From contig NZ_CP083663.1 of the NCBI RefSeq assembly GCF_020097815.1, forward strand, positions 124,001 to 188,000: a DNA stretch of 64,000 nucleotides. The letters run 5' to 3'. Both the position numbers and the translations under genes were made by a program. The notes beneath the pieces were generated by a model, which was given only the letters and a program-made list of their open reading frames with translations, did no database searches and was not told the DNA's origin. Positions 50,231-54,932 of the stretch are shown here, in pieces (the stretch's first letter is position 1; the number at the start of each line of letters is the position of its first letter). The DNA is from Haloprofundus salinisoli. GTDB taxonomy: Archaea > Halobacteriota > Halobacteria > Halobacteriales > Haloferacaceae.

Positions 50231-51193
50231 ATGACAGTGCCGCTCGCACAGACCGGGGCCGACCGACGTCGGGTCGTCGTCCTCGGCCACGGCGAGTTCG
50301 CCGACGGGTTCGTGGAGACGCTCCGCGACGCCGCCATCACGGCCACGCACGTCACCGAGGCGCCGTCGGCGCTTTCGGCGCTCGACGACGGACCCGTCGA
50401 CTGTTTCGTCGTCGTCGCCGGCGACTCGTTTCTGACGCCGCCGGCGGAGTTATTCTCGCTCGCGCGCAGGCGAACGACCGCCCCCGGCCTGTACGTGAGC
50501 GACGAGACGGCCGCGCTTCCGCCGGCGGTCGAACAGGTTCCGGCGGACGCGACGCACGCGACGACGCGGGTCCGCCGGGCGTTGCTCGACTCGGCCGCAG
50601 ACGACGTTCCCGCGTCGACGACCCCCGACTCCGTCGGCGCGTACGGGTCGACGCTCGGCCACGAACTCGGAAACCAGTTGATGAAACTCGACTTCGCGGC
50701 GGAGTCGGTGACCGACGACGACCAGGCGGTACGGCTCGACCGGGTGCTCTCGCGCCTCCGACGGCTGGCCGACGAAGCCGAAGCGGTCGGCCGCGGGACC
50801 GCCGCGCCGGAGACGGTCGAACTCGACGCCGTCGCGGCCGACGCCTGGGAGCGCGTCGAGGCGTCCGACGCGGACCTCGCCGTCGAGGCCGACCGCCCGC
50901 TGGAGGCGGACCCGCTCCTCCTGGTGCTATTCTTCGAGAACGTGTTCAGAAACGCCGTCCGCCACGGCGGCCGGGACGTAGTGGTCCGCGTCGAGACGAC
51001 GCCGCGGGGGTTCACCGTCGGCGACGACGGCCCCGGCTTCCCCGAGGACGCCCGGCTGTTCGAGTGGGGTCACACCACCGGCAACGGTTCGGGCGCGGGT
51101 CTGGGTATCGTCGCCCGCATCGCCGACGCCCACGGCTGGACCGTCACCGCCTACAACGACGGCGGGGCGACGCTCGACGTACGGACCGAGTGA
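50231..51193 (+). CDS. Sensor histidine kinase with REC-like N-terminus
   Basis: The 320-residue protein has an N-terminal alpha/beta region (RRVVVLGHGEFADGFVETLRD to about residue 120) resembling a receiver or sensor fold but without an obvious phospho-Asp. It is followed by the H-box LGHELGNQLMKL (H144), N-box ENVFRNAVRHGG and G-boxes VGDDGPGFP and GSGAGLGIVARIA. The kinase core is complete and short. No membrane segment is present, so the sensor is cytoplasmic. It lies divergent from the COG1361-like operon and convergent with a HalX regulator 98 bases away, the most likely partner in this window. Confidence 0.88.
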   Translation: MTVPLAQTGADRRRVVVLGHGEFADGFVETLRDAAITATHVTEAPSALSALDDGPVDCFVVVAGDSFLTPPAELFSLARRRTTAPGLYVSDETAALPPAVEQVPADATHATTRVRRALLDSAADDVPASTTPDSVGAYGSTLGHELGNQLMKLDFAAESVTDDDQAVRLDRVLSRLRRLADEAEAVGRGTAAPETVELDAVAADAWERVEASDADLAVEADRPLEADPLLLVLFFENVFRNAVRHGGRDVVVRVETTPRGFTVGDDGPGFPEDARLFEWGHTTGNGSGAGLGIVARIADAHGWTVTAYNDGGATLDVRTE

Positions 51194-51290
51194 CGAGAGC
51201 AGAAAGGTTCGAAGAGAAGGAACGCCGAGCGAACGCGGCGAGCGGCGAGAACGAACGGAGGCGAGGAGGAAACGACGACTCCTGTTACGA

Positions 51291-51848
51291 CTACGAGGCG
51301 TCGCCCGGACCGATGGCGACGGCGTAACTTTCGGAGCCCAGTTCCTCTAGCTGGTCGGTCGTCTGCCGGCGGAGCGTGTCGAGGCGACGCTTCAGCAGTC
51401 GGTAGTTCGAGTCGGATTCGAGCCGCCGGGCGTCGTGTTCGGTCTCCAACAGCGCGACTTTCGAGGCGACGGCGAAGAACTCCTGCAACTGCGAGTCGTA
51501 CGTCGCGCGGGCCAGCAGGCTCTCGACGACCGCGAAGAGGTCGTCGCGGCGGACGGGTTTGGTGAGGTACTCGTCGAACGGCATCTCCGCGACGTCGGTG
51601 GTGGGGTCGACGGCGGTGACCATCGCCACCTGCGGCGGGTTCTCCCGCTCGTACAGCGCGGCGAGCACCTCGTCGCCCGACATCCCCGGCATCCGGCGGT
51701 CGAGCAACACGGCGTCGGCGTCGAAGGCGAGTTCGAGCGCCTCCGCGCCGCTAGTAGCGGTCAGCACGCGATATCGGTCTCGCAGGCGCGCGGCGTGGCC
51801 GTGCGCGATGTCCGGGTCATCGTCGACGACGAGTACGGTGTGGTCCAT
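51291..51848 (-). CDS. HalX-type response regulator
   Basis: The 185-residue protein has a receiver domain with DDD at residues 9-11, phospho-acceptor Asp50 (VLLDRRMPGMSG), and Lys in LTKPVRRDDL. The HalX domain follows as a helical C-terminal half (ATYDSQLQEFFAVASKVALLETEHDARRLESDSNYRLLKRRLDTLRRQT). HalX proteins are haloarchaeal output-like regulators whose targets are not well known. The ATG giving MDHTVLVVDDDPDI is chosen; MHKERCT seven codons upstream is possible. It converges on the neighbouring histidine kinase. Confidence 0.88.
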   Translation of the reverse strand: MDHTVLVVDDDPDIAHGHAARLRDRYRVLTATSGAEALELAFDADAVLLDRRMPGMSGDEVLAALYERENPPQVAMVTAVDPTTDVAEMPFDEYLTKPVRRDDLFAVVESLLARATYDSQLQEFFAVASKVALLETEHDARRLESDSNYRLLKRRLDTLRRQTTDQLEELGSESYAVAIGPGDAS

Positions 51849-51849
51849 G

Positions 51850-51898
51850 GTGCACCTCTCTTTGTGCACTATTTTCTTTCCAGGCTGTTAATATTTCG
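51850..51898 (-). promoter_or_regulatory. HalX promoter with two GTGCAC palindromes
   Basis: GTGCAC occurs twice, starting 14 bases apart (51850 and 51864), immediately before the HalX start codon. A TATA-like AAATATTAAC lies about 40-50 bases upstream of the ATG. The two palindromes overlap the expected transcription start, so they could be a repressor or autoregulation site. Confidence 0.4.
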
Positions 51899-51976: not shown

Positions 51977-52408
51977 TCAGGAGGGAGCGACACCGAGGTC
52001 TTCGAGCGCCCAGCGAACGACTTTCGCCTCGACGACCGCCCGACTCTCGGCGTCGTCGTCGGTCAGCACGCGGTCACTCTTTGCGAGGAGCCGTCGTTCG
52101 GTCTCGGTCTGGTCGGGTTCGTCGCGAGTCGCGCTCAGCAACGCCTCGAAATCCTCGCGGAGGTCGAACGACGCGTAGGCGACGTTGCAGCGCGAGAGGG
52201 GGCTCATCCCGAGATTCGACACGAGGTCGGTGACCGTCTCCCAATCGGAGGCGCAGAAGTGAATCGACACCTCGCCGACGATGTCGCGCCACGCGATGGG
52301 GCCGCTGTTGCGCATCAGCGTCACCGCTCGCGGCGGCAGGTCGAGTCGGGCGACGGTCGCTCTTTCACCGCAGAGACAACACGGTTTCTCGGTCTTGCCC
52401 GTGTACAT
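51977..52408 (-). CDS. Unknown protein with N-terminal Cys motifs
   Basis: The 143-residue protein begins MYTGKTEKPCCLCGERATVARLDLPPRAVTLMRNSG and has later Cys at HFCASDWE and SRCNVAY. The CCLCG pair together with FC could bind a zinc ion. The C-terminal half is helical and acidic. I recognise no family. Its upstream region carries a perfect 10-base hairpin. It is separated from the HalX gene by 78 bases after the shared direction and seems to be its own transcription unit. Confidence 0.65.
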   Translation of the reverse strand: MYTGKTEKPCCLCGERATVARLDLPPRAVTLMRNSGPIAWRDIVGEVSIHFCASDWETVTDLVSNLGMSPLSRCNVAYASFDLREDFEALLSATRDEPDQTETERRLLAKSDRVLTDDDAESRAVVEAKVVRWALEDLGVAPS

Positions 52409-52859: not shown

Positions 52860-53225
52860 TCACCGCTGCAGCGGCGACTCGACCGGCGATTCGGCGTCGG
52901 CGGCCAGCCACTCGTCAGCCCACGACTCGATCTCCTCGAACACGGGGCAGAGTGACTGTCCCTTCGGCGTGAGGCTGTAGTACGTCGCCACCGGCGCGTC
53001 CTCCTCCAGTCGCCGGTCGACGAACCCCATCTCGCGGAGGTCGTCGAGCACGCGCGAGAGCGTGCGCGAACTCGCGTCCGTCGAGCGCTTCAGTTCGTTG
53101 AACCGCTTTTCGCCGTCCTGGAGGTCGTGCAGCACGATGAGTCGCCACTGTGAACCGATCTGTTCGAGCGAGTCGATGACCGGACAGACCGCCAGCGGCT
53201 TCTCGGTGTCGGGTTTGGATGACAT
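52860..53225 (-). CDS. HxlR/DUF24-type redox-responsive repressor
   Basis: The 121-residue winged-helix protein has the HxlR pattern: CPVIDSLEQIGSQWRLIVLHDLQDGEKRFNELKRSTDASSRTLSRVLDDLREMGFVDRR and a helix ending YYSLTPKGQSLCPVFEEIESWADEW. Cys14 stands just before the first helix, where Bacillus YodB and CatR have the thiol that senses quinones and diamide. It is divergent from the DoxX/VOC/flavin-reductase genes with a paired operator between them, so it is their likely repressor. TATA-like CCTATTTATCC and the operator at the start codon suggest a leaderless, self-repressed transcript. Confidence 0.9.
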   Translation of the reverse strand: MSSKPDTEKPLAVCPVIDSLEQIGSQWRLIVLHDLQDGEKRFNELKRSTDASSRTLSRVLDDLREMGFVDRRLEEDAPVATYYSLTPKGQSLCPVFEEIESWADEWLAADAESPVESPLQR

Positions 53226-53229
53226 CGGT

Positions 53230-53291
53230 GTTACCTGGTCACGTCTATGTCCGCGAACGGATAAATAGGTTCGTATCGAATACCAGGTAAC
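53230..53291. promoter_or_regulatory. Paired inverted operators between the HxlR and DoxX genes
   Basis: GTTACCTGGT at 53230-53239 and its exact reverse complement ACCAGGTAAC at 53282-53291 flank the leftward TATA box (CCTATTTATCC on the minus strand) with 42 bases between them. One copy overlaps the transcription start of the HxlR gene and the other lies upstream of the DoxX promoter. A dimeric repressor bound to both would control both genes. A smaller TTCG-N3-CGAA dyad lies between. Confidence 0.6.
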
Positions 53292-53368
53292 GTGACGATA
53301 CTACGTTTCACGACGATAGCAGAACCGACGACTGACTTCCGACGCGACGGACACGCAGGGGTAACGCG

Positions 53369-53797
53369 ATGACGCTGCTGCAGAGCGCCGTCGCCTTCGA
53401 CGGCCCCGCGGCGGGGTTCGCGTTCCTCGTCGGTCGCGTGCTCTTCGGGGGCGTGCTCGCGTTCAACGGTCTGAATCACTTCCTCGACAGCGACCAGATG
53501 GTCGGCTACGCACAGGCAAAAGGCGTCCCGGCACCGGGACTCGCCGTGCCGTTAACCGGTGGGATGCTGTTGTTCGGCGGCATCGGCATCGCGCTCGGAG
53601 TGCTCCCGACGCTTTCGGCGGGCGCGCTCGTCGTGTTTCTGTTGGTGACGACGCCGCTGATGCACGACTTCTGGGACGCCCCCGAAGGCCAGCAGCAGAG
53701 TGAGATGATAAACTTCCTGAAGAACGTCGCCATGCTCGGCGGCGCGCTCGCGTTCCTCGCGCTCGGCGCGGCCGGAGCGTGGCCGTACGCGCTCTGA
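53369..53797 (+). CDS. DoxX-family membrane protein (CatD-like)
   Basis: The 142-residue protein has four hydrophobic segments and the DoxX opening AGFAFLVGRVLFGGVLAFNGLNHFLDSDQMVGYAQAKGVPAPGLAVPLTGGMLLFGG. The end has TTPLMHDFWDAPEGQQQSEMINFLKNVAMLGGALAF, the usual DoxX second half. In Bacillus, CatD is a DoxX protein made with the catechol dioxygenase CatE. Here it is followed by a VOC gene and a flavin reductase and is divergent from the HxlR regulator, so quinone or electrophile detoxification is the likely role. Confidence 0.88.
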   Translation: MTLLQSAVAFDGPAAGFAFLVGRVLFGGVLAFNGLNHFLDSDQMVGYAQAKGVPAPGLAVPLTGGMLLFGGIGIALGVLPTLSAGALVVFLLVTTPLMHDFWDAPEGQQQSEMINFLKNVAMLGGALAFLALGAAGAWPYAL

Positions 53798-53861
53798 GAC
53801 GACCGCGAACGACCGCGAGCTGCCAACACGATTAACCGATCTTCGCACTAACGATTCATCC

Positions 53862-54347
53862 ATGACCGACGCACCACCGACCACTGGACTGCACCACGTG
53901 ACGAACATCTGCACCGACATAGAGGAGACCAAGGCGTTCTACGAGGACGTCCTCGGCTGGCACACGGTGAAGATGACCCAGAACTACGACGACCCGGGGA
54001 CGCCGCACTACTACTTCTCCTCGACGCCCGAGGGCGAACCGGGAACGAACGTCACCTACTTCGAGTATCCCGACTCCCGCGGGGTGCCCGGTCCGGGAGC
54101 GAGCCACCACTTCGCCTTCGGCGTCGAGGACAGAGAGACCATAGAACAGTGGCGCGAACATCTCATCGACCACGGGGTACGCGTCTCGCAGGTGAAAAAC
54201 CGGACGTACTTCGAGAGCATCTACTTCACCGACCCCGACGGTCTCGTCTTCGAGCTCGCCACGATGGGTCCGGGCTTCGCCTACGACGAGGAAGAGCCGG
54301 GTAGCGGCGAAATCGACCCGTTCGAGAAGGGCTACGGGGACAACTGA
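53862..54347 (+). CDS. VOC-family protein, small extradiol-dioxygenase-like
   Basis: The 161-residue protein opens TTGLHHVTNICTDIEETKAFYEDVLGW. A candidate 2-His-1-Glu metal site is formed by H12 (LHHVT), one of H82/H83 (ASHHFAFGV) and E131 (VFELAT). It covers one pair of VOC modules, about half the length of CatE or MhqO, so it may dimerise to make full sites, or be a glyoxalase-like enzyme. It follows doxX by 64 bases and its TGA touches the ATG of the flavin reductase, forming one operon. Confidence 0.88.
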   Translation: MTDAPPTTGLHHVTNICTDIEETKAFYEDVLGWHTVKMTQNYDDPGTPHYYFSSTPEGEPGTNVTYFEYPDSRGVPGPGASHHFAFGVEDRETIEQWREHLIDHGVRVSQVKNRTYFESIYFTDPDGLVFELATMGPGFAYDEEEPGSGEIDPFEKGYGDN

Positions 54348-54932
54348 ATGGAGGGCGCTCCCGACGCCTTCGGCTCTCCGTATCGACTGCTCGCGGGGTC
54401 GGTCGTCCCGCGCCCCATCGCGTGGGTGAGCAGTCGCAACGAGGAGGGTGTCGACAACCTCGCGCCGTACAGTTTCTTCAACGTCGTCACGCCCGACCCG
54501 CCGGTCGTGATGTTCTCGCCGGTCGGCGTCGGCGACGACAGGAAAGACACGACGAAGAACGTCCTCGCCACCGAGGAGTTCGTCGTCCACGTCGTCACCC
54601 GCGACCTCGCGGAAGCGATGAACGCGACGAGTGCGACGCTCGAACACGGCGAGAGCGAGTTCGATCACGCGAAGTTGGAGACGGTGGAGGCGACGACTAT
54701 CGACGCCGCCCGCGTCGCCGACGCGAAAGTGGCCTTCGAGTGCCGCCTCTACGACGCCCACGAGGTCGGGCGGTCGACGATGGTTCTCGGCGAAGTCGTC
54801 CACGCCCACGTCGCCGACGAGCTGCTCACCGACGGGAAGATGGACGTGACGAAACTCGACGCCGTGGGACGTCTCTCGGGCAGTCAGTACGCGACGACCG
54901 ACGAGCGGTTCTCGCTCGAACGGCCGCCGTGA
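54348..54932 (+). CDS. Flavin reductase family protein (FMN-binding split barrel)
   Basis: The 194-residue protein begins SPYRLLAGSVVPRPIAWVSSRNEEGVDNLAPYSFFNVVTPDPPVVMFSPV, the flavin-reductase-like/FMN-binding opening. It continues RKDTTKNVLATEEFVVHVVTRDLAEAMNATS and AHVADELLTDGKMDVTKLDAVGRLSGSQYATTDERFSLERP. Members reduce FMN with NAD(P)H for partner oxygenases or act as flavoproteins. Its ATG follows the VOC stop directly. The electron donor for a quinone- or ring-modifying enzyme in the same unit is a reasonable guess. Confidence 0.88.
   Translation: MEGAPDAFGSPYRLLAGSVVPRPIAWVSSRNEEGVDNLAPYSFFNVVTPDPPVVMFSPVGVGDDRKDTTKNVLATEEFVVHVVTRDLAEAMNATSATLEHGESEFDHAKLETVEATTIDAARVADAKVAFECRLYDAHEVGRSTMVLGEVVHAHVADELLTDGKMDVTKLDAVGRLSGSQYATTDERFSLERPP

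Follow-up and report, generated by a model that had tools for sequence, protein, structure and literature searches.

A haloarchaeal HxlR/DUF24 regulator beside DoxX, one-domain VOC and flavin reductase genes: a candidate quinone defence locus

The locus and its conservation

The window, a stretch of 64,000 nucleotides from the 3.42 Mb genome of Haloprofundus salinisoli, carries an HxlR/DUF24 winged-helix regulator gene that lies divergently to genes for a DoxX membrane protein, a one-domain VOC enzyme and a flavin reductase domain protein:

52860..53225, minus strand: HxlR/DUF24 winged-helix regulator gene (121 aa; PF01638)
53369..53797, plus strand: DoxX membrane protein gene (142 aa; PF07681)
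53862..54347, plus strand: one-domain VOC enzyme gene (161 aa; PF00903)
54348..54932, plus strand: FMN-type flavin reductase domain protein gene (194 aa; PF01613)

The four genes lie where a sequence-only reading of this DNA had placed them, and all four products pass the Pfam cut-offs of their families, namely HxlR (75.4 bits, cut-off 20.8), DoxX (51.4 bits, cut-off 23.6), Glyoxalase/VOC (73.2 bits, cut-off 20.6) and Flavin_Reduct (94.4 bits, cut-off 27). The DoxX and VOC genes are separated by 64 bp, and the VOC stop abuts the flavin reductase start (54347/54348). The solved structures most similar to the flavin reductase are 3bpk (7.5e-37) and the 2-nitrobenzoate nitroreductase 4z85 (5.2e-31); besides that nitroreductase, nitrilotriacetate monooxygenase component B is among its closest relatives.

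VOC orthologues with 75-96% identity are found in Haloprofundus, Halorubrum, Halogranum, Halobellus, Halalkalicoccus, Natronocalculus, Halalkalirubrum, Salinigranum, Halostagnicola and other genera, the closest named relative in the scan being Haloprofundus marisrubri, whose VOC protein is 93% identical. In a non-redundant set of 49 such VOC loci, two of which come from one genome, an HxlR orthologue is adjacent in 44 and usually divergent from DoxX-VOC, so that the order and divergence seen in the window recur across haloarchaeal genera far beyond chance. DoxX lies between HxlR and VOC in most loci. A few loci lack it (H. marisrubri, L050, L082), VOC there directly following the HxlR promoter, and L046 and L057 have it on the other side. 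The flavin reductase, read earlier as an added member of the unit, is present in the window but optional elsewhere, following VOC in about 20 of the 49 loci and being absent from most Halorubrum. Because DoxX is missing in some loci and the flavin reductase is present in only about 20, HxlR-VOC forms the core of the unit, with DoxX and the reductase as frequent, optional additions. Genes inserted between DoxX and VOC were rejected as unit members, both in L038 and L040, where the insert lies on the opposite strand and encodes a carotenoid oxygenase-like protein, and in L042, where it encodes another protein.

The regulator and its cysteine

The best PDB relative of the regulator is YodB of B. 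subtilis (5hs7, 1.1e-15), with HypR/YybR, HxlR and QsrR among those ranking next, and orthologues are present in 217 of 243 Halobacteriales genomes. Cys14, directly before the first helix region (MSSKPDTEKPLAVCPVIDSLEQIG) as had been noted from the sequence, aligns on YodB Cys6 (VCP on MCP) and is kept in every one of 84 translated orthologues. The bacterial regulators YodB and CatR sense through Cys6/Cys7, and QsrR through alkylation of Cys5 (PMC6798810). Conservation of Cys14 was nonetheless rejected as proof of sensing: a cysteine before helix 1 is present as well in 9 of 15 HxlR paralogues outside the orthologue group, and the position is therefore a family habit that proves no function alone.

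A C-terminal resolving cysteine, which belongs to the YodB two-Cys type only, is not a general feature of this regulator. Its second cysteine, Cys93, is not conserved, orthologues having one at 93, 101 or 110 or, in 8 of the 84, none, and a YodB-like disulfide is therefore not supported as a general mechanism. Sensing by a single cysteine through QsrR-type alkylation is possible. Homology and the placement of Cys14 together support a regulator of the YodB/CatR type (DUF24) with a cysteine at the sensor position.

A one-domain relative of MhqO and PcpA

The VOC protein is half-length, as had been read, with a single domain in its 161 aa. Its best solved relatives are MhqO (3oaj, 1.5e-33), 1zsw and PcpA (4huz, 5.4e-16), and it aligns twice, the first half with the N-terminal and the second half with the C-terminal domain of MhqO/PcpA. 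The 2-His-1-Glu site that had been suggested from the sequence is present as H11/H12, H82/H83 and E131; counted along the alignments, H12, H83 and E131 fall on His11, His227 and Glu276 of PcpA, its metal ligands. H11, H82, R114, Y116 and Y121 are also common to MhqO/PcpA, and all eight residues are invariant in 27 relatives, with T14 nearly so. The 2-His-1-Glu site and second-shell residues of the MhqO/PcpA family are thus both there, but not the two-domain, four-module architecture of about 310-335 aa, and the protein is filed as a one-domain relative rather than a family member because it has 161 aa and one domain. Judged by alignment, it resembles modules 1 and 4 of MhqO/PcpA with the degenerate modules 2 and 3 left out, and is a one-domain relative of these hydroquinone dioxygenases with retained metal ligands and a putative activity of that kind.

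The sequence-only reading had likened the enzyme to CatE, an assignment that fails, as the catechol 2,3-dioxygenase model TIGR03211 gives 27.6 bits against a cut-off of 320.2 and the nearest relatives are MhqO and PcpA. PcpA itself has an iron site of two histidines and one acidic residue and no apparent affinity for catechol (review, PMC3727088).

An AlphaFold2 model of the protein shows a single VOC domain (pLDDT 82). Its top fold match is 9u42, a one-domain VOC homogentisate 1,2-dioxygenase (Z 14.6, 28% identity; 8e-11 by sequence), and one-domain para-diphenol ring cleavage therefore has at least one deposited precedent. Many glyoxalase and Fos proteins follow close behind, with MhqO also among the fold matches. 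As the fold is common to glyoxalases and Fos enzymes, the catalysis of the VOC protein could differ, and the fold alone leaves the reaction unsettled.

Bacterial relatives from Anaerolineae and Gemmatimonadetes (45-50% identity; L084-L091) are tandem fusions that carry the full residue set in both halves, which suggests that two-site fusions of this kind may have been an intermediate in the evolution of MhqO/PcpA.

Partner genes beside orthologous regulators

Forty HxlR loci from further genomes, sampled across genera and mostly lacking the one-domain VOC gene, were inspected for their neighbours. A divergent neighbour from one small set of quinone-regulon-type genes is present in 21 of them: a two-domain MhqO-type gene in 7, DoxX in 10, a flavin reductase in 4, the one-domain VOC in 1, another VOC type in 2 and a hydrolase alone in 1, some of these occurring together. 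The remaining 19 have none of these partners divergently adjacent. Among 15 HxlR paralogues, no such partner was found within 1.5 kb. Different genomes therefore set different parts of the bacterial quinone kit next to one and the same regulator.

For L132, the MhqO-type protein gave 1.3e-90 against B. subtilis MhqO, and the gene after the MhqO-type gene encodes a phospholipase/carboxylesterase-type hydrolase in all loci read (L132, L134, L135, L143, L147 and L148), the one tested, from L132, belonging to PF02230. In S. aureus, the quinone operon mhqRED, with its regulator MhqR, pairs MhqE with the phospholipase/carboxylesterase MhqD (PMC6798810), and it is this MhqE-MhqD pairing that recurs beside the haloarchaeal regulator.

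Two further observations concern these neighbourhoods. A second, different one-domain VOC protein of about 200-230 aa, with a GxDHxT...DRGAFHSIYTRDHNGL motif, lies beside DoxX or the one-domain VOC gene in the vicinity of this regulator, in Halalkalicoccus among others (L046:5421-5984, L057:5415-5978, also L133, L140 and L142), and in L147 and L151 the MhqO-type gene that accompanies the orthologous regulator has a methionine sulfoxide reductase-like gene downstream of it.

An operator-like site between the divergent genes

The intergenic stretch between HxlR and DoxX (53225-53369) contains a perfect 10-bp inverted repeat and, inside it, a tighter palindrome, TTCG-TAT-CGAA, directly after a TATA-like element:

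53230..53239, plus strand: left arm GTTACCTGGT of the inverted repeat, lying immediately 5' of the HxlR start and kept in relatives
53260..53269, no strand assigned: TATA-like element GATAAATAGG between the divergent starts, a putative promoter element
53265..53300, plus strand: operator-like footprint, with the core GGTTCG-TAT-CGAAtACC (53268-53284) and the right arm ACCAGGTAAC of the inverted repeat (53282-53291)

Relatives carry the TATA-like element as TATATAGG or ATAAATAGG, and the palindrome, which overlaps the shared TATA region, is kept in them while its flanks are not. When a weight matrix built from the VOC loci alone (effective number 6.5) was applied to the 40 held-out HxlR upstream regions, 35 exceeded the highest score reached by 240 random windows drawn from those same loci. 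Among the 15 paralogue promoters, L100 alone gave a clearly high score, and another two lay slightly above the random maximum. The simplest reading of the site is a bidirectional operator over the promoter/start region, which would provide both autoregulation and control of the operon.

The matrix scan found no such element at the DoxX-VOC loci without an adjacent HxlR gene (L037, L063, L079), and retention of the operator where DoxX-VOC lies apart from HxlR was accordingly rejected. In the H. salinisoli genome, searched with strict patterns, the full match is unique and lies at the window locus; as regards a wider regulon, the same search returned, besides the locus, only one match with two mismatches and one with three, and a reversed-pattern control for the two-mismatch search also gave one match.

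L100 is the locus of an HxlR paralogue of G009, a genome without the orthologue, and the region upstream of that paralogue, at a score of 21.3, perhaps contains a related site.

Comparison with known systems

The haloarchaeal regulator shares the HxlR fold and the cysteine at the sensing position with the MarR/DUF24 quinone-sensing repressors YodB/CatR of B. subtilis and QsrR of S. aureus, whose regulons likewise include dioxygenase, DoxX-type and reductase genes and whose operators overlap the promoter, as the haloarchaeal site would. In contrast to these systems, the haloarchaeal locus has a TATA-like archaeal promoter, no general C-terminal resolving cysteine and, by the strict pattern search, a single local target in its own genome. 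OxsR of Haloferax volcanii, a TrmB-family thiol regulator, is also haloarchaeal and cysteine-based but belongs to a different protein family.

The sequence-only reading had proposed the logic of CatR/CatDE, in which a DUF24 regulator controls DoxX and an adjacent VOC enzyme. Of the outcomes that it named as refuting, those open to sequence analysis, loss of the gene order in related genomes and loss of the cysteine in orthologues, did not occur. The regulator type, its conserved cysteine, the conserved divergent DoxX-VOC order and a conserved operator-like element agree with this proposal, whereas the identity of the enzyme with CatE and a fixed place for the flavin reductase do not hold: the haloarchaeal VOC protein is one-domain and MhqO/PcpA-like, not catechol 2,3-dioxygenase-like. 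The mhqNOP operon of B. subtilis encodes a nitroreductase, MhqO and the DoxX-like MhqP. In composition, mhqNOP/mhqED come nearest, combining a reductase, an MhqO-type enzyme and DoxX, and the MhqO-MhqD pair is itself found beside orthologous haloarchaeal regulators; the differences are that the regulator is DUF24/HxlR instead of MhqR, the reductase PF01613 instead of a nitroreductase, and the VOC protein half-length. The closest bacterial parallel is the combined YodB/QsrR and MhqR (mhqED/mhqNOP) gene set, not CatR/CatDE.

Compared with MhqO and with PcpA, a 2,6-dichlorohydroquinone 1,2-dioxygenase, the VOC protein retains all metal ligands of the first and last modules and their neighbouring residues but lacks the two middle modules (161 aa versus about 320-335). 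The homogentisate dioxygenase 9u42, para-diphenol ring-cleaving by its title, is of the same size class and the best fold match, but at 28% identity only and with a lower sequence score than MhqO/PcpA.

Proposed function and alternatives

We consider the locus probably to be a haloarchaeal defence against electrophiles, most likely quinones, in which a thiol-switch repressor of the YodB/QsrR type is combined with a one-domain VOC enzyme, DoxX and a flavin reductase. A dimer of the HxlR regulator would bind the palindrome over the TATA/start region, repressing its own gene and the divergent operon, and would be released when a quinone or oxidant modifies Cys14. The flavin reductase may then reduce quinones to hydroquinones, while ring cleavage of the hydroquinone, or of a hydroquinone-thiol adduct, would fall to the VOC enzyme with a metal held by H12, H83 and E131, and DoxX could act as a membrane helper.

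The same thiol switch might instead answer to another signal or substrate, such as hypochlorite, methylglyoxal or aldehydes, with the VOC protein being a glyoxalase or thiol transferase in an arrangement like HypR/glyoxalase. We regard this as unlikely, though the most serious of the alternatives. In its favour, the solved structures closest to the regulator include HypR (4a5m/4a5n, YybR), glyoxalase I and FosX/FosB also appear among the fold matches of the VOC protein, and both the use of gamma-glutamylcysteine and glyoxalase activity are on record for haloarchaea (PMC7278568). Against it, the VOC sequence lies much nearer to MhqO/PcpA than to any model of a glyoxalase or Fos protein, and MhqO with MhqD occupies the same place beside the orthologous regulator. 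It is improbable that the genes form a catabolic ring-cleavage locus for homogentisate-like or other hydroquinones under a metabolite-binding HxlR protein; the top fold match to 9u42, which is also matched by sequence (E 8e-11), fits such a role, but no catabolic pathway genes adjoin the locus, the gene set is small and, like stress regulons, includes DoxX and a flavin reductase, and MhqO/PcpA are closer in sequence to the VOC protein. That the neighbourhood is mere inherited synteny without a common regulatory role is very improbable, for although nearby unrelated genes (an ABC transporter and a 143-aa protein) also keep their position, the regulator is divergent to the same functional set with varied members in varied genomic surroundings, and the conserved operator-like site disappears along with the regulator.

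Beyond the quinone-defence reading, we tentatively entertain the wider possibility, itself rather doubtful as a whole, that HxlR serves the Halobacteriales at large as a YodB-type thiol switch, found with a conserved operator in about nine of ten genomes, and that the VOC protein represents a minimal and perhaps ancestral form of hydroquinone dioxygenase. In that case the first and last MhqO/PcpA modules would make up a complete active site, and the bacterial two-site tandems would be an intermediate towards MhqO/PcpA.

Significance

A 2022 paper counted YodB, QsrR and HypR among the regulators not readily identified in archaea (PMC9426492), and within the literature searched we found no paper on a haloarchaeal HxlR/DUF24 quinone regulator. 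Systems of this kind are already known in Firmicutes; what is new is the archaeal setting, a near-universal regulator with its own conserved site, and a half-size enzyme. With its conserved cysteine, conserved DNA site and matching detoxification gene set, the locus is a specific and widespread candidate through which archaeal quinone/electrophile sensing becomes directly testable, in organisms that are culturable and partly genetically tractable, and the half-size VOC protein provides a means to probe the minimal needs of MhqO/PcpA ring-cleavage chemistry.

Neighbouring genes

Near the regulator gene, at 51977-52408 of the window, lies the gene of the 143-aa protein, which gave no Pfam match, has a CCLC motif and further cysteines, stays close to HxlR across many genera and, in L150, is its direct divergent neighbour. 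At 50231-51869, a histidine-kinase-like ATPase gene converges with a HalX response regulator gene, and this pair adjoins the locus in genomes of the same genus.
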